From assembly GCA_030694975.1 (NCBI GenBank), contig JAUYTU010000019.1:1-64000 (forward strand): a stretch of 64,000 nucleotides of DNA, read 5' to 3'. Of this stretch, positions 35,963 to 44,593 are shown one piece after another. The number at the start of each line of letters is the position of its first letter. Position 1 is the first letter of the stretch. A program made the translations under genes and the position numbers. The stretch comes from Erysipelotrichaceae bacterium. Lineage in GTDB: Bacteria; Bacillota_I; Bacilli_A; Erysipelotrichales; Erysipelotrichaceae. A model generated the notes under the pieces. That model had not been told where the DNA came from and searched no databases. It was given only the letters and a program-made list of their open reading frames with translations.

Positions 35963-37273
35963 ATGGAAAAATATGGACTAATTAAATCATTTATCATTTA
36001 TAGTATGATTGCGTTTATACTAACCGGTATAATTTTATCTCAAATCACTTATAGTCATATTAGGAAAGACGACTTATCAAATATTGTTGAAATAGCTACT
36101 GTTTCAACAAAAAGCATAGTCAAAAATAATCTTGAAAAGGTAGATTTTGGTCAAGTATTTTCTGCTTCAAAAGTACAAGAGATTGAATCGAATCTTAATG
36201 AATTTATGAGTGCATTTAGCATTGAATCAATTACAGTATTAAACAATAAAAGGGAAATTGTTATGTCGACAGGTGAATGGCCATTTTCGGTAGAGGAGAA
36301 GCAGAATAAATTGAATCTCGACAAGATTATCAATCATAGTTTACCTTACATCGTTTCTGATGCTTTTGTTGCAAACGAATCAGCAAGTACGAAATCAAAT
36401 ATAACCTATTTCAATTTTTTTATAACTGTGTATTACGAAAATGGAGTTGAAGGAGTGTTTGTCTTGCGAATGCCTTCTAAATCTATCAGTGCACATGCCG
36501 ATTTACTCACTCAAGAGATAGCATTGGCGCTTACCGGAGGACTACTTTTGCTTTTTCTATTATTAATTGGTTTACTTTATAAAACTTCCAAAACTTTGAT
36601 TAACCAGAATGAGCACCTGAATATGCGAAAAAATGAGGTTGAGGAATCATATAAACGCTTAGATGACTCATATAAAAGTACGGTGATTGCAATGTCCAAT
36701 GCAGTTGATGCCAGAGATTCATATACTGCTGGCCATTCTAACAGAGTGTCAGAAATATCAATATTGTTAGGCCAAGAATTAGGATTATCAGATACTGATT
36801 TAAAGAATCTGCATTATGCTACCCTATTTCATGATATTGGGAAGATCGGGATTTCGGACAGCATCTTAAACAAGAATGGAAAGTTGAGTAATGTAGAGTA
36901 CGAAATTATTAAAGAGCATCCGGACATTGGCGTTAAAATACTCAAAGGTATAGATTTTCTCGCTGATGCACTAACAATCATTCGTCATCATCATGAAAGG
37001 TTTGATGGTGGAGGATATCCATGCGGTTTGAAAGGTGAAGAAATCCCGTTAGGATCAAGAATTATCGCCATTGCAGATACATATGATGCGATGACTTCTA
37101 ATCGGCCATACCGATTAGGAATAAATCATGAGTTAGCTTTAAGCAAAATCATCGAAAATAAAGGATCTCAATTTGATAGCAAATTGATTGATGTATTTTT
37201 AATGCTTGAAAAAAGGATTTATACTCAAAAACAAACAAATATGCTTATAGATAGAGTCGAAAAGTTACTATGA
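35963..37273 (+). CDS. Membrane HD-GYP domain c-di-GMP phosphodiesterase
   Basis: A 436-residue protein with a membrane segment near residue 20, an extracytoplasmic sensor region (about 35-175), a second membrane segment (about 185-205), a short coiled coil, then an HD-GYP domain (about 230-430). Metal and catalytic residues are intact: FHDIGKIGI, HHHERFDGGGYP and DTYDAMTSNRPYR. It should hydrolyse cyclic di-GMP. The start at 35963 is preferred, but 35927 is possible; neither has a strong binding site. Stop overlaps the next gene by ATGA. Confidence 0.85.
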   Translation: MEKYGLIKSFIIYSMIAFILTGIILSQITYSHIRKDDLSNIVEIATVSTKSIVKNNLEKVDFGQVFSASKVQEIESNLNEFMSAFSIESITVLNNKREIVMSTGEWPFSVEEKQNKLNLDKIINHSLPYIVSDAFVANESASTKSNITYFNFFITVYYENGVEGVFVLRMPSKSISAHADLLTQEIALALTGGLLLLFLLLIGLLYKTSKTLINQNEHLNMRKNEVEESYKRLDDSYKSTVIAMSNAVDARDSYTAGHSNRVSEISILLGQELGLSDTDLKNLHYATLFHDIGKIGISDSILNKNGKLSNVEYEIIKEHPDIGVKILKGIDFLADALTIIRHHHERFDGGGYPCGLKGEEIPLGSRIIAIADTYDAMTSNRPYRLGINHELALSKIIENKGSQFDSKLIDVFLMLEKRIYTQKQTNMLIDRVEKLL

Positions 37274-37962
37274 AAAAGATGCATATTGCAATTATGTTTG
37301 TGACTTTTACAACTTTGGGAGCACTTTTTGGATTAATACTTCACTCAGTATTGATTTCGGCAAGGGGTAATTTTCTCATCCATTGTTTATTGATTGGTGG
37401 TGTATTTGGTTTACTTAATTCAATCACTTCTCTTTACTTTTTGAGAAAAAATAATATGTTAGTAAGCACTAATCTTAAACTGGACTTAGAAATCCGAAAA
37501 GACAAACTGACAGATTTATTCAATAGGAAAGCGTTTGATTATGATCTTAATACTATTTATTTAAACGAAGTCTGCTCAGTTATATTTCTTGATGTGGATA
37601 ATTTTAGAGATTTTAACAATGTGTATGGTCACCAAGTTGGAGATAATGTACTTATCGAGTGTGCGAGAATCATTAAAAGTTGCATAAGAGAAAGTGATAT
37701 GTCGTATCGATATGGTGGGGAGGAGTTCATCGTGATATTACGCAATTGTATAAAAAAAGAAGCTGGTAAAATTGCACAAAATATCGTTAAAAATATAAGT
37801 TGCAGAGAAAATGGATCTTTACCAATGATGACAATTTCTGCTGGTGTTTCCTCAATGCCTGAAGATGCTTCTACGATTGAGCAAATAGTTAGAGCCAGTG
37901 ATCTAGCATTGATCTCAGCTAAAAAGCTAGGTAAAAATCAAGTGGTATTATATGAAATATAA
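37270..37962 (+). CDS. Membrane GGDEF diguanylate cyclase
   Basis: A 230-residue protein with two N-terminal membrane segments (about 5-28 and 35-58) and a GGDEF domain. The active site reads GGEEF (in YRYGGEEFIVIL) and the upstream metal Asp is in FLDVDNFRDFN, so it looks catalytically competent. Co-translated with the HD-GYP gene, it would make what its partner degrades. I see no RxxD inhibitory site at the usual position, only KSCIRESD. Confidence 0.87.
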   Translation: MKKMHIAIMFVTFTTLGALFGLILHSVLISARGNFLIHCLLIGGVFGLLNSITSLYFLRKNNMLVSTNLKLDLEIRKDKLTDLFNRKAFDYDLNTIYLNEVCSVIFLDVDNFRDFNNVYGHQVGDNVLIECARIIKSCIRESDMSYRYGGEEFIVILRNCIKKEAGKIAQNIVKNISCRENGSLPMMTISAGVSSMPEDASTIEQIVRASDLALISAKKLGKNQVVLYEI

Positions 37963-38276
37963 AATCCAATCATTTGTAAATAAGAGATCATACTCTAATT
38001 TTAGTCTAACTGAGAAGTTGTCAGATGTCTGATTCTAGAATAGGGCGGTTCCGTAGAACCACTATGTTGAAGTTGATTACGTACAACGGGGAATATAGTA
38101 TCGACAAATCATAGAAATTTCATTTTGTTGAAAATCTCTTGTTTTCCTCTTGTTCCATATTTTCATACGTTTGCGATGTGCAGTGGTGAGGACGCGGTCA
38201 AAGAAGTGGCTTCCCAGTGCTTTGACACGGTTGCGGATGCCCTGCGTTTTGTTATGAATCAAGATGAAGTGAAGTC

Positions 38277-38316: not shown

Positions 38317-38399
38317 GCGCGTGTGGCGAAATTGGCAGACGCACTAGACTTAGGATCTAGCGGGCAACCATGGGGGTTCGAGTCCCTTCACGCGCACCA
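38317..38399 (+). tRNA. tRNA-Leu (TAG)
   Basis: An 83-base class II tRNA: acceptor GCGCGTG with CACGCGC, anticodon stem CTAGA/TCTAG with loop CTTAGGA (TAG), short variable arm, GGTTCGAGTCC T-arm, encoded CCA. Confidence 0.95.
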
Positions 38400-38470: not shown

Positions 38471-38496
38471 TATATTTCGATTATAGTCGAAATATA
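38471..38496. promoter_or_regulatory. Palindromic operator copy 1
   Basis: Perfect 10-bp arms TATATTTCGA and TCGAAATATA around TTATAG. Centred 40 bp upstream of a second, inverted copy. Confidence 0.65.
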
Positions 38497-38498
38497 GG

Positions 38499-38534
38499 TT
38501 GATTATTTAATATATTTCGACTATAATCGAAATA
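38499..38534 (+). promoter_or_regulatory. Promoter with embedded palindromic operator copy 2
   Basis: TTGATT (38499-38504), 17 bases, TATAAT (38522-38527). The -10 box lies within palindrome TATATTTCGA, CTATAA, TCGAAATA (38511-38532). A protein bound here would block transcription of the ATPase gene. Confidence 0.7.
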
Positions 38535-38546
38535 GAGGTGGGTATA

Positions 38547-39728
38547 ATGATTAAAAGAGAGCGGTATCAACGATTACTAAACAACTATAAAGATAAGCCT
38601 TTTATCAAGGTTGTCACCGGAATCAGAAGAAGTGGAAAATCGGTGCTACTGGATCTTCACATTCAGAACTTATTGGAACAAGGTGTCCCAAGTGATAATA
38701 TATTCAAACTCAATTTTGAATTGCCCGATAACTTTCACATAACCAACTACTTGGAGTTATCAAGGATAGTTTTGGATTGGTCTAAAGACAAAGTGGGAGT
38801 CTTATATATCTTTTTAGACGAAGTCGGTAGGGTTAGTGAATGGGAAAAGGCGGTCAATGGATTTCATGCCATGAACAAATTTGATATTTATATCACTGGT
38901 TCTAATGCAGATCTTCTTTCTTCAGATCTATCTACTTTTTTAGCTGGCCGATATGTGGAGATTTTAGTTCATCCTTTTTCATATCAAGAATTTCTACAAG
39001 TTCACAAAAATGCAAAATTTACGGACTATCTTGTATTTGGCGGATTGCCTTCAATATCTGTATTCAATCTCGAATATGAGCCATCCATGACGGTTCTGAG
39101 AGATAGTTTTGGGTCAGCTGTTTTGCAAGATGTAATACAACGATATGCAATCAGAAATACAGTCGTACTTGAAAAACTCATTGTGTATCTCTGTGCAAAT
39201 ACCTCTTTGACCTTTTCGGCTTTATCCATTTCTAAATATCTTAAATCTCAACACATCTTAGCAACTGTTGATACAGTACTGAATTATATCAATATATTAG
39301 TGAGTGCATTTATAGTATACAAAGCCCCTCGATATGATCTTCTTGGGAAATCAATTATGAAAACTGAAGAGAAATACTTTATTGCTGACCATGGTTTCAG
39401 AGAGGCAATGGTGGGGAAAAATACAAATTCTATTGAACTTATTCTGGAAACTATCGTTTATATCGAACTGATCCGACGTGGGTTCCAAGTATTCATTGGA
39501 AAAATTGATCAGTTTGAGATTGATTTTGTGGCAGTTAAACAGGATTACAAAGAATACTACCAAGTATCATATGTACTTAACTCACCTAAAACTCGAGAAA
39601 GAGAATTCAGTGTTTATCATCGTGTTAATGATTTCTTTCCAAAGTTCGTATTATCCATGGACGAAGTAGATTTTTCTCAGGAGGGTATCATCCATAAAAA
39701 CATTGTTCAGTTTCTGTTGGAAAAATAA
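38547..39728 (+). CDS. AAA ATPase with DUF4143 C-terminal domain
   Basis: A 393-residue protein. Walker A GIRRSGKSVLL at about residue 28, Walker B IFLDEVGR at about 93, sensor ITGSNADLLSS, then YVEILVHPFSYQEF, typical of the AAA_14/DUF4143 group. The C-terminal third (IELIRRGFQVFIGKIDQFEIDFVA) is restriction-endonuclease-like. These ATPases are widespread and of unclear function. Start at 38547 after GAGGTGGG; the in-frame GTG at 38538 lies in that site. Probably autoregulated through the two palindromes. Confidence 0.85.
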   Translation: MIKRERYQRLLNNYKDKPFIKVVTGIRRSGKSVLLDLHIQNLLEQGVPSDNIFKLNFELPDNFHITNYLELSRIVLDWSKDKVGVLYIFLDEVGRVSEWEKAVNGFHAMNKFDIYITGSNADLLSSDLSTFLAGRYVEILVHPFSYQEFLQVHKNAKFTDYLVFGGLPSISVFNLEYEPSMTVLRDSFGSAVLQDVIQRYAIRNTVVLEKLIVYLCANTSLTFSALSISKYLKSQHILATVDTVLNYINILVSAFIVYKAPRYDLLGKSIMKTEEKYFIADHGFREAMVGKNTNSIELILETIVYIELIRRGFQVFIGKIDQFEIDFVAVKQDYKEYYQVSYVLNSPKTREREFSVYHRVNDFFPKFVLSMDEVDFSQEGIIHKNIVQFLLEK

Positions 39729-40305: not shown

Positions 40306-40326
40306 AAGGGCGAAAGCCCTTTTTTG
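40306..40326 (+). terminator. Terminator after lipoprotein gene
   Basis: Stem AAGGGC/GCCCTT with a GAAA loop and six T. Confidence 0.88.
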
Positions 40327-40487: not shown

Positions 40488-40760
40488 ATGAATACTGAAC
40501 TTGAGCAAAGATTACTATCTGCCTTAACTACAAATCAACTGGACAAGGCGGCTGAATACTTAGCAGTCGCTTACAATGACAATGTAGATATGTCGAAAAT
40601 TTTAATGTATACAGCCATTGTTTATGAAGGTCAACATATGCCTGAAAAGGCAATGTGTTACTATCGGGCATCTCTTGCCATTGATGGGACCAATAAGGCT
40701 ACACTTTATAATCTCTATCGTCTTGCTGAATCAAAGAAAGAACCCATAAGGTTTCTATAG
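40488..40760 (+). CDS. Short TPR-like helical protein
   Basis: A 90-residue protein with helical pairs resembling one or two tetratricopeptide repeats (LDKAAEYLAVAYNDN; PEKAMCYYRASLAIDGTNKATLYNLYRLA). Start at 40488 after TGGAGG. First gene of the potassium-uptake operon, nine bases before the first TrkA-like gene, so perhaps a regulator or adaptor. Not a known Trk component. Confidence 0.6.
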   Translation: MNTELEQRLLSALTTNQLDKAAEYLAVAYNDNVDMSKILMYTAIVYEGQHMPEKAMCYYRASLAIDGTNKATLYNLYRLAESKKEPIRFL

Positions 40761-40769
40761 GAGTTTATT

Positions 40770-41417
40770 ATGTACGTAATTATCGTAGGATGTGAACTCT
40801 TAGGCTCTAGAATTGCTAAAGAGATGGCAAACTTAAACAATGATGTGGTAGTAATTGAACGCAGTGAGTCTAAATTAGAGACGTTAACTGGTGACTTCAA
40901 TGGAATGATTTTGCATGGAATTGAGTTTGATCAGGACAATCTGGTTCAAGCAGGAATAGAAAAAGCAGATGTAATACTAGCGCTGACCGATGATGATAAC
41001 ATAAACATTACAGTCAGTTTGGTAGCGAGCAAAGTCTTTAATGTCAAAAGAGTAATCTCTCAAGTCATTGATCCAAGTCGACGTTATCTGTATGAACTGC
41101 TCGATATCGAATCATTTTGCCCGACAAATATGGGAGTCAACTCCCTATTATCAAAATTAGACATAAACCAAGTTGATCAACTTGCCCAAATCAGTTCTGG
41201 AATAGAGTTGACGCGCATCGTTGTTGAAAGAAACATATCTATCTCTGTAAGGGAGGTTTATGTTCAAACAAACGCATTAATCAGTATACTGATACACAAT
41301 GGTATATCTTCAATATGTAAAGAAGATACTATTGTTACCAAAGGTGACATGATTGTGTGCAGTAATCATCTAAGAGATCGCAAAAAGCTGACAGAACTGT
41401 TGGTGCAGGAGGATTAA
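40770..41417 (+). CDS. TrkA/KtrA-family RCK protein with altered nucleotide loop
   Basis: A 215-residue regulator of K+ uptake: N-terminal RCK_N Rossmann domain (about 1-125) and RCK_C (about 135-215). The glycine loop reads VGCELLGSR; the middle glycine of G-x-G-x-x-G is Glu, while the acidic ribose-binding residue (VIERSES) remains. Nucleotide affinity may be changed. Followed immediately by a second, canonical TrkA. Confidence 0.83.
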   Translation: MYVIIVGCELLGSRIAKEMANLNNDVVVIERSESKLETLTGDFNGMILHGIEFDQDNLVQAGIEKADVILALTDDDNINITVSLVASKVFNVKRVISQVIDPSRRYLYELLDIESFCPTNMGVNSLLSKLDINQVDQLAQISSGIELTRIVVERNISISVREVYVQTNALISILIHNGISSICKEDTIVTKGDMIVCSNHLRDRKKLTELLVQED

Positions 41418-42068
41418 GTGAGAGCCATTATCATCGGAGGAGGAAAAGTCGGATATTTCCTCGTAAAAACACTTTTAGAGAAGAAAATGAAAGTCACTTT
41501 GATTGAGAAAAATCGCGATCGTGCTACTCAAATTTCAAAAGAGTTGGATATAGATGTTTTATGGGGAGACGGTTCCGATTTGTCCATACTTGAGGAAGCC
41601 AATATTAGTGATTGTCAGTTGGTAGCTGCCGTTACCGGAAGTGATGAAGAGAATCTGGTTGTTTGTCAAATTGTTAAGTTGAGATTTGAAAATACCAAAA
41701 CGATCGCACGGATCAATAATCCTAAAAATATCAAAATGTTTCGTATGTTAGGTGTGGATCGCACGGTTTGTAGTACTGAAGTAATCGCGAACCTCATCCA
41801 TGCCGAGTTTGAAAGTGATACGGTTAGAATCATCCAGACTTTTGAAATGGGAACAATGTTGTTGGCAGAACTTGTATTACAGGGCAATCATAAATGGTTA
41901 AGTAAGGAAATTAGAAATCTAGAATTGCCTCGCAAACTGGTCATTGTTTCTATCTTACGTAATGATGAAGTGATTTACCCTAAAGGGAATGTGATGCTTC
42001 AGCTTGGGGATAAGATTGTGTTTGTTTGTGATAAAGAAACAATTTCGGGGTTGAAAAAATATTTATGA
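41418..42068 (+). CDS. trkA: TrkA-family RCK potassium-uptake regulator
   Basis: A 216-residue protein with canonical IIGGGKVGYFLVKTL glycine loop, LIEKNRDR ribose contact, WGDGSD and RCK_C domain. Begins with GTG directly after the previous stop. Probably forms a heteromeric gating ring with its neighbour on TrkH. Stop overlaps the small ORF at 42065 by ATGA. Confidence 0.87.
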   Translation: MRAIIIGGGKVGYFLVKTLLEKKMKVTLIEKNRDRATQISKELDIDVLWGDGSDLSILEEANISDCQLVAAVTGSDEENLVVCQIVKLRFENTKTIARINNPKNIKMFRMLGVDRTVCSTEVIANLIHAEFESDTVRIIQTFEMGTMLLAELVLQGNHKWLSKEIRNLELPRKLVIVSILRNDEVIYPKGNVMLQLGDKIVFVCDKETISGLKKYL

Positions 42069-42157
42069 AAAGATTAAATGGTTATATATTTGAAATTGGA
42101 TTTGTCATGGTAATGATGAGTGTGTATTTCCTGATTACTTGGCTGATTAGCTTATGA
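42065..42157 (+). CDS. 30-residue KdpF-like membrane peptide in trk operon
   Basis: MKRLNGYIFEIGFVMVMMSV followed by a hydrophobic end (YFLITWLISL), one membrane segment. Start overlaps the trkA stop (ATGA) and stop overlaps the trkH start (ATGA), so it fills the gap exactly and would be translationally coupled on both sides. Size and position recall KdpF, the 29-residue stabilising peptide of the Kdp K+ pump, but I see no clear sequence relation. Real translation is inferred from the double overlap. Confidence 0.65.
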   Translation: MKRLNGYIFEIGFVMVMMSVYFLITWLISL

Positions 42158-43674
42158 AAGTCGATACAAGTAATTGGGGTAGTGTTTGCTACTATACTGG
42201 CAAATCTATTCTGATTTTTTCTGCACTGTTCGCATTGCCTATTTTTGTCGCAATCAGTCACAGTGATTGGAACTCGGCATTGGATTTTACCATATCAATG
42301 AGTATATCGATCATCTTATCGATTGGACTAACATTTTATGGTGAGCAAAAAAGAAAAAATGCTCATAATTTATCTTGGCGTCATGGATTGGTTGTGGCTT
42401 CTTTTTCTTGGATACTTCTTTCCTTAATAAGCGCCATTCCCTATTCTTTAAGCGGCCACTCACTTTCATATCTTGACTCTGTGTTTGATGTAATGAGCGG
42501 TTTTACGACAACAGGCGTATTTCTTATTCAAGATCTAGACCATATATCACAAGCATTGAACACTTGGCGGCATTTACTGACATTTGTCGGTGGACAGGGA
42601 ATGATTGTATTGGCTATCAGTTTTTTTGTAAAAGAAAGTGGCAGTGCCTATAAATTTTATGTTGGTGAAGGCAAAGATGTATCATTGGTTCCCAATGTGC
42701 AAGGCACAGCAAAGTGGATTTGGCGTATTAGTTTGGTCTATTTGCTCATTGGAACTACCCTGTTATTTATCCAAGGAATGAGAATCGGATTAAATCCAAT
42801 TAACTCACTATTCCACGGTTTGTATATTTTTATGTCTGCTTGGAGTACAGGTGGGTTTGCACCGAACTATCAAAATATTTTGTTTTATCATGATTTCATG
42901 TATGAAAGTATTGGTCTTGTATTTTTTATTGTCGGTTCATTTAATTTTGGACTGCACTTTGCTTTTATTCAGGGAAAATATAAAGAGTTTCGAAAGAATA
43001 TTGAGATCGTTAGTTTCTTTGTATCATCTTTTGTCCTAAGTGTTTTTGCAGTTGTCTATCTAAGCAACACAGGGATATATTCTGATTCAATAAGTCTTTT
43101 CAGACGGGTTGTTTATAATGTGCTTTCAGCTCATACAACAACCGGATTCGGATCTGTGTATGCCCAACAGTTTATTTCAGATTGGGGAGGATTAGGAATA
43201 ACCGTCATGGTTGTGGCAATGTTGATTGGTGGCAGCGCTTGTTCTACCGCAGGGGGAATAAAGGGTTTAAGAATAGGTATTATATTCAAAGGAATTTATA
43301 ATGACATTCAGAAATTGATGAAAGGCGAAAGGACGATGCGCGTAGTTAAGTATCATCACATAAAAGATTATATTCTTGATGATGCTACTTTTCGTTCTGC
43401 AGCTAGTATAGCCATATTGTATATCGCACTTTTTACTGTCGGTGTCTTACTGACATCACTCAGCGGGTACAGCCTAATTGAGTCCAGTTTCGAGGTAGCC
43501 TCGGTTACCGGTAATGTAGGCTTAAGTGTTGGAATCATACAAGCCTCAATGCCTTCATACTTAAAGCTGTTCTACATTTTTGCTATGTATCTAGGACGCT
43601 TAGAATTCATTTCAGTATTTATCCTTATTGGAATGTTTATCAAAGGAGCACGTAAATGGTTTCAACAATACTAG
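42154..43674 (+). CDS. trkH: Potassium uptake protein TrkH family
   Basis: A 506-residue membrane channel with four pore loops; recognisable filter regions include SGFTTTGV, SAWSTGGFAP, SAHTTTGFGS and VTGNVGLS. Length matches TrkH (about 480) better than KtrB (about 445). Imports K+ when gated by the RCK proteins encoded upstream. Ends inside the next gene (19-base overlap). Confidence 0.92.
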   Translation: MKVDTSNWGSVCYYTGKSILIFSALFALPIFVAISHSDWNSALDFTISMSISIILSIGLTFYGEQKRKNAHNLSWRHGLVVASFSWILLSLISAIPYSLSGHSLSYLDSVFDVMSGFTTTGVFLIQDLDHISQALNTWRHLLTFVGGQGMIVLAISFFVKESGSAYKFYVGEGKDVSLVPNVQGTAKWIWRISLVYLLIGTTLLFIQGMRIGLNPINSLFHGLYIFMSAWSTGGFAPNYQNILFYHDFMYESIGLVFFIVGSFNFGLHFAFIQGKYKEFRKNIEIVSFFVSSFVLSVFAVVYLSNTGIYSDSISLFRRVVYNVLSAHTTTGFGSVYAQQFISDWGGLGITVMVVAMLIGGSACSTAGGIKGLRIGIIFKGIYNDIQKLMKGERTMRVVKYHHIKDYILDDATFRSAASIAILYIALFTVGVLLTSLSGYSLIESSFEVASVTGNVGLSVGIIQASMPSYLKLFYIFAMYLGRLEFISVFILIGMFIKGARKWFQQY

Positions 43675-44147
43675 CTCTATTGTTAGTTTCTCAAATTAAT
43701 CAAGTTACAATCAATCAAATAATCGCAAATAGCCATGATTTTGATCAATCCGTCATTATGATAGAAGCAGAAGTAATACTTGAAGTGCTTGAGCGTAATG
43801 AGAATGCTTGGATCAATGTTAACGACGGAACCAATGCTATCGGTGTATTTTTGCCTTTAAGCATGACTGCGGATCTTGAAGTGTTTGGTGACTATGAACA
43901 TCAGGGCGACACAGTTAGAGTTGTCGGGGTATTTTCAAGAAATTGTGTAGAACATGGTGGTGAAATCGATATCCATGCATCAAGCTTAGAAGTCATTAAG
44001 CAAGGTGTCAAACAAAATCACAAGGTTCCGGTATGGAAAGGATTATTAGCCTTGGTAGGAGTTTCCATGAGCATAACTGCCTTACTTTTGCATCGTAAGA
44101 GAAAAGTAATCATGAAATTCAGCAATCGCTTTGTGAAACCAGTATAA
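43656..44147 (+). CDS. OB-fold protein with signal segment and C-terminal membrane anchor
   Basis: A 163-residue protein: N-terminal hydrophobic segment, an OB-fold nucleic-acid-binding-like domain (VIMIEAEVILEVLERNENAWINVNDG; VRVVGVFSR), then a membrane segment near residues 130-148 and a basic cytoplasmic end. AAAGGAG supports the ATG at 43656 within trkH. Last gene of the K+ operon. Function unknown. Confidence 0.65.
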   Translation: MVSTILALLLVSQINQVTINQIIANSHDFDQSVIMIEAEVILEVLERNENAWINVNDGTNAIGVFLPLSMTADLEVFGDYEHQGDTVRVVGVFSRNCVEHGGEIDIHASSLEVIKQGVKQNHKVPVWKGLLALVGVSMSITALLLHRKRKVIMKFSNRFVKPV

Positions 44148-44153
44148 TATCTC

Positions 44154-44178
44154 AAAAAAAGGGCATTGCCCTTTTCAA
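44154..44178. terminator. Bidirectional terminator between convergent operons
   Basis: Stem AAAAGGGC/GCCCTTTT around ATT serves the K+ operon on plus and the MarR operon on minus. Confidence 0.75.
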
Positions 44179-44179
44179 T

Positions 44180-44593
44180 TTATTGCTTCCCTAGTTTTTT
44201 CAACAAATTTTGTAATTCATCTTCTTCGCTTGCATCAAGTACATCGATGACCGATCGCATATGAGCAAGATGCTTGGGATAAACCTCATCAAATAATCCC
44301 CTACCTTTTTCACTAAGATGAACCATGTGGATGCGTCTATCATTTTCATCTTTCACTTTCTCAATCAACGCCTTCTTAATCAGATTCTCAATCACATAAC
44401 TCATACTTGAATTAGCAATGAGTACTTTCTCACAGATTGATTGTACTGGCAACGGCCCTTTATGGTACAACACTTCCAACGCTCCAAACTCTGATAAGTT
44501 GAGTCCATGCTTTGAAACATCATGCTTAATCGTCTCTTGAATGAAATTCGTTGCCCGAAATAAGATGGTAATTGTTTTTAGGTCTTTGCTCAT
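44180..44593 (-). CDS. MarR-family regulator, MhqR-like
   Basis: A 137-residue winged-helix repressor (recognition region PVQSICEKVLIANSSMSYVIENL; wing EKVKDENDRRIHMVHLSEKG). Co-transcribed with the dioxygenase gene, overlapping by four bases. In Bacillus, MhqR represses mhqO and other quinone-stress genes through a TATCTCGAATTCGAGATA-type site; a near-identical palindrome lies at 45610-45627. Confidence 0.82.
   Translation of the reverse strand: MSKDLKTITILFRATNFIQETIKHDVSKHGLNLSEFGALEVLYHKGPLPVQSICEKVLIANSSMSYVIENLIKKALIEKVKDENDRRIHMVHLSEKGRGLFDEVYPKHLAHMRSVIDVLDASEEDELQNLLKKLGKQ

Follow-up and report, generated by a model that had tools for sequence, protein, structure and literature searches.

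TrkH, whose structures have been solved, is a textbook example of a K+ uptake channel, and its working unit is taken to be TrkH together with a TrkA ring; KdpA, like TrkH, belongs to the SKT superfamily. Tiny single-span membrane subunits that accompany a large membrane protein are known elsewhere, CydX and AcrZ among them. KdpF, a peptide of 30 residues, is supposed to stabilise the KdpABC complex and has also been reported to bind KdpD (PMC3618439). A literature search on small proteins associated with TrkH or KtrB and on KdpF-like peptides, conducted largely outside the subscription journals, found no report of the peptide described here.

The window, a stretch of 64,000 nucleotides from an Erysipelotrichaceae bacterium, carries on its forward strand a gene for a small membrane protein of 30 residues (42065-42157), with the product MKRLNGYIFEIGFVMVMMSVYFLITWLISL and the frame ATG...TTA TGA. 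An ATGA at 42065-42068 contains the TGA stop of the preceding gene, trkA2, and a second ATGA at 42154-42157 contains the ATG start of trkH; the ATG at 42065 is the sole in-frame start of the ORF. The first-pass annotation, which had described an unannotated 30-residue ORF with ATGA overlaps at both ends, was thus right on its structure and also on its lack of annotation, as the peptide matched nothing in Pfam, NCBIfam or the PDB. The copy in the window lacks a strong ribosome-binding site for itself, which we count against the reading that we prefer. Its product shows a glycine at position 6 and a glutamate at position 10 (G6-x3-E10), followed by one transmembrane helix.

Homologues of this gene lie beside all trkH genes of one divergent subfamily. 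A TrkH alignment run against 84,980 species genomes retrieved 27 loci of the same subfamily as the window, distributed over Erysipelotrichaceae, other Bacillota, Clostridium, Sedimentibacter, Hathewaya and Romboutsia on the Bacillota side and, beyond it, over Athalassotoga and Mesoaciditoga (Thermotogota), Coriobacteriia, Gaiellales and another actinobacterium. From 398 additional genomes came 17 new ones with a subfamily trkH, and the peptide was present in all 17. Counting the 28 first loci, the 17 further genomes and a second copy in one genome, an ORF of 29-45 codons for a single-span protein stands directly 5' of trkH in 46/46 subfamily loci (45 genomes) of the Bacillota, Thermotogota and Actinomycetota. 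The locus with the nearest TrkH (86% identical) encodes MKRLKGYLVEIGFVSIMMFLYFALAWIVSL at the same place and with the same trkH overlap. The first-pass annotation had set conservation of the ORF in related trk operons as the check on its proposal; frame and sequence proved to be kept in relatives, so the loss of frame that was to count against it was not found, and the product that it had called a single membrane helix is a genuine single-span peptide. At locus L058 (7222-8682), a second subfamily trkH, 39% identical to that of the window, stands in tandem after the OB-fold-like gene and apparently lacks a peptide of its own.

That the Gly/Glu pattern aided the spotting of the first 28 peptides by eye is a further point against the preferred reading, although the later profile searches were independent of it. 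A profile built from these 28 peptides and run on all six-frame ORFs of 19 later loci ranked the trkH-adjacent ORF first in every one (E 6e-10 to 0.017), the next-best ORF being no better than E 1.8; two of these loci (L089 and L100) belong to genomes that had supplied peptides for the profile, leaving 17/19 as independent. The same profile found no such ORF where the host and its relatives carry an ordinary trkH (28 loci, TrkH proteins 26-31% identical to that of the window), and its best hit there (E 0.54) lay away from trkH. In a six-frame search of the whole window genome the profile identified 42065-42157 at E 2.6e-10 with no second match, and the top match adjoined trkH in 11/11 whole genomes, three of which had not been used for the profile; the weakest of the eleven (G819, E 0.8) counts by its position alone. 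Across 390 genomes of the class, matches below E 1e-4 occurred only in the two that carry the subfamily trkH. An early, weak query with a single peptide sequence had given one sub-threshold match, in genome G280, later found beside a subfamily trkH. Moreover, pN/pS over close peptide pairs was about 0.30 (uncorrected counts from pairs that are not fully independent), and therefore selection acts on the protein. The peptide gene is real and conserved, and its linkage is exclusive to one TrkH subfamily; its product belongs to a new family of small proteins characteristic of a distinct TrkH clade.

The partner gene, trkH (42154-43674, forward strand), encodes a divergent TrkH of 506 residues that scores 130 bits against PF02386 (cut-off 27) but falls far below the curated cut-offs of the NCBIfam TrkH equivalog PRK10750 and of TIGR00933, with 136 of 866 and 212 of 331 bits, respectively. 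The protein has four pore loops with the filter glycine (TTTG, STGG, TTTG and GNVG, alignment A3). The subfamily forms a clade apart from ordinary TrkH (support 0.99), with which it shares 21-34% identity, and has invariant residues of its own, e.g. Q126, N136, Q148, W190, S193, N241 and N282. The predicted model of an orthologue found its best fold match in Vibrio TrkH (6v4l, TM 0.81 by target), with 3pjz also matched, and the fold match to VpTrkH indicates that the D0 part is present. Among the matches listed in a plasmid collection there were only ordinary TrkH proteins, below 34% identity. In the group L092-L098, the four trkH genes inspected (L093, L095, L097 and L098) have GGWDTAGF as the second pore loop, vs the usual AWSTGGF, which places an acidic residue beside the selectivity filter.

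The remaining genes of the operon are, in order and all on the forward strand, a small soluble ORF of 90 residues at its head (40489-40760), conserved in the nearest relative only (L032, 51% identical) and without a Pfam family; trkA1 (40770-41417), the second single-RCK TrkA gene (TrkA_N); trkA2 (41418-42068), a single-RCK TrkA gene with a GTG start (TrkA_N and TrkA_C); and, beyond the peptide gene and trkH, a gene that overlaps the trkH end and encodes a 163-residue protein with a signal segment, an OB-fold-like extracytoplasmic domain and a C-terminal membrane anchor (43656-44147). Both trkA assignments rest on Pfam, and both genes are conserved 5' in most loci. A hairpin at 44157-44185 (forward strand) resembles an intrinsic terminator at the operon end and another at 40306-40321 one ending the preceding gene, each by consensus match only. 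The 163-residue protein itself matched no Pfam or NCBIfam family, and the OB-fold assignment comes from weak PF01336/PF13742 matches in its relatives; it and its homologues (alignment A7) share an AC-x-EHGGDMDIHA-type motif and the C-terminal anchor. Wherever a subfamily locus extends far enough, this OB-fold-like gene lies directly 3' of trkH; it is a second unrecognised component, uncharacterised but conserved, that goes with the subfamily trkH, in a five-gene neighbourhood that is largely fixed. No separate promoter for the peptide was evident in a consensus scan, whose matches were at chance level, and Rfam gave no credible regulatory RNA, apart from a tRNA, between 38000 and 46000. Further upstream, a near-perfect repeated palindrome of the TATTTCGA-TATAGTCGAAATA type at 38476-38535, just 5' of an ATPase-like gene (38538-39728), resembles an operator or the end of a small transposon, and at 36000-37963, 5' of the tRNA (38317-38396), HD-GYP-like and GGDEF-like signalling genes, identified by eye, lie side by side.

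The description of the peptide as locked between trkA and trkH was not supported as the essential fact, as the peptide goes with that TrkH subfamily and can do without trkA. In one genome of the Coriobacteriia there is an additional, more divergent copy of the unit (L101, 1692-3890) in which peptide, trkH and OB-fold-like gene stand among unrelated genes with no trkA 5', an arrangement which suggests that these three form the core unit; moreover, trkA2 is shortened at two loci (L038 and L041) where the peptide is still there. The peptide therefore follows TrkH, not TrkA. Nor are its frame and length fixed by its neighbours, as had been proposed: in relatives, whose peptides range from about 29 to 45 residues, the gene is often set off by a gap or has a good Shine-Dalgarno sequence of its own, and the ORF occurs in any frame relative to trkH. 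Overlap with the neighbours is not conserved, and translational coupling is thus a local detail rather than the reason for the gene.

The anatomy of the family was drawn from 43 distinct peptides. A glycine and, four residues on, a glutamate are invariant in 43/43, marking the cytoplasmic end of the helix; basic residues lie 9 positions before the glutamate in most peptides, none has a charged residue in the 18 positions after it, and the 19-residue hydropathy maximum averages 2.36. Counted from the glutamate, position +2 is mostly small, +7 is large and hydrophobic (almost always L, F, Y or M) and +15 is mainly T, A, S or G, and this pattern therefore describes a conserved helix stripe bearing a membrane-buried acid near the cytoplasmic end. 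By the positive-inside rule, the distribution of charges suggests an N-in, C-out topology. The window peptide has the three traits by which we propose to delimit the family, namely a single span, G-x3-E at the start of the span and a position directly 5' of a subfamily trkH.

Since the peptide lies 5' of the divergent trkH in all 46 loci and in three phyla, it is probably a real and so far unrecognised subunit of this transporter. We consider it likely that the peptide is translated and serves a divergent TrkH-type K+ transporter as a single-span accessory subunit, packing on TrkH and stabilising or tuning it; the steps that we infer are its translation, its topology, its binding to TrkH and any influence on gating or stability. 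The peptide would be made from the same operon and inserted beside TrkH with its basic N-terminus inside and its C-terminus outside, and one face of its helix, formed by the invariant glycine, the buried glutamate four residues on and the large hydrophobic residue seven further, would pack against the lipid-facing surface of TrkH. Once bound, it may tune the channel or lend it stability, the role supposed for KdpF in the Kdp pump. For docking with AlphaFold2, the peptide and trkH of two natural loci where they share one frame were modelled with stops read through, and peptide-only rows, which the aligner misplaced, were left out of the alignments. TrkH was modelled with reasonable confidence, while the pLDDT of the peptide was about 32-67 in one model (A5) and 34-45 in the other (A6), with only 5-6 rows containing the peptide and a forced linker that may distort it, so the models give no readable binding site on TrkH. 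A bolder form of the proposal, to which we give only a low probability, is that peptide, TrkH and the secreted OB-fold-like protein together are the obligate core of a separate transporter class for K+ or another monovalent cation, in which the buried glutamate, placed beside the pore, would contribute to gating or ion coupling, the OB-fold-like protein would sense or cap the outside and TrkA would be optional.

Other readings of the locus were weighed against this accessory subunit. That the ORF is a chance open frame or a gene remnant, as its mere 30 codons might allow, is scarcely credible, and a chance ORF is ruled out by conservation, selection and whole-genome specificity: it recurs in 46/46 subfamily loci, its genome-wide profile E-values go down to 1e-10 and it is under purifying selection. 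In the window and in L032 the ORF overlaps both of its neighbours by ATGA, which would also suit a translational coupling device that merely relays ribosomes from trkA to trkH, with an irrelevant product; we regard this as very improbable, because purifying selection acts on the amino acids, some of which are invariant across phyla, because the overlaps are not conserved, with gaps and separate Shine-Dalgarno sequences at many loci, and because one locus has no trkA 5' of the peptide.

Two further readings grant the peptide a function. It might be a regulator that binds TrkH or another membrane protein conditionally and inhibits or activates K+ flux, and its size, single span and conserved buried acid do fit regulatory membrane peptides, as does the reported binding of KdpF to the KdpD sensor kinase (PMC3618439). 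However, an in-operon site immediately 5' of trkH everywhere predicts constant co-production, and a separate promoter is not evident, which makes conditional regulation rather unlikely. It might also be an insertion or assembly factor that assists TrkH in folding, in dimerising or in joining TrkA and the OB-fold partner and that stays outside the finished complex, and its translation immediately before TrkH and the largely fixed five-gene neighbourhood speak for this; yet sequence constraint along one helix face, where Gly and Glu are invariant, is more typical of a stable helix-helix contact, and although this point is not decisive we judge such a factor improbable.

If the peptide is an accessory subunit, a whole Trk clade in at least three phyla has a different subunit make-up, with single-span and extracytoplasmic partners, that family libraries have missed, and the peptide family itself is widespread. 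The pairing of KdpF with KdpA and of the peptide with TrkH suggests that single-helix helpers of SKT-superfamily channels arose more than once.

Among described systems, TrkH/TrkA (VpTrkHA, 4J9U and 6V4J-L; E. coli TrkH) is similar in the SKT fold, with 6v4l/3pjz closest by structure and TrkH by profile, and in the TrkA genes 5'; the subfamily differs by adding two single-RCK TrkA genes, the peptide and the OB-fold-like extracytoplasmic protein. KtrAB is likewise an SKT-superfamily channel with RCK regulators and a structural match, but its profile match to the window-type TrkH is weaker (E 5e-16 vs 1e-55 for TrkH) and leaves the D0 part unaligned. CydX and AcrZ belong to the same class of tiny subunits, with other partners, whereas the peptide has no sequence match to any family: 28 peptides gave none in Pfam and NCBIfam, KdpF included, and the PDB yielded no credible match, its best hit (photosystem II M chain, E 0.058) being rejected as a generic transmembrane match. 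The likeness to KdpF that the first-pass annotation had pointed out is an apt analogy of function without homology, since PF09604 recognised a control KdpF at E 1e-6 while the window peptide was recognised by nothing in the same scan. Both are of about 30 residues and form a single hydrophobic helix, which hydropathy and an AlphaFold helix support for the peptide as a resemblance rather than proof of kinship, and both genes lie immediately 5' of the gene for a K+-channel-like subunit. In contrast to the peptide, the control KdpF sequence lacks the G-x3-E motif; the neighbours of the peptide are trkA (usually), trkH and the OB-fold-like gene instead of kdpA, kdpB or kdpC, and its presumed partner is TrkH, not a P-type ATPase complex. 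Thus, the peptide most likely has a role functionally like that of KdpF, to which it is unrelated in sequence.
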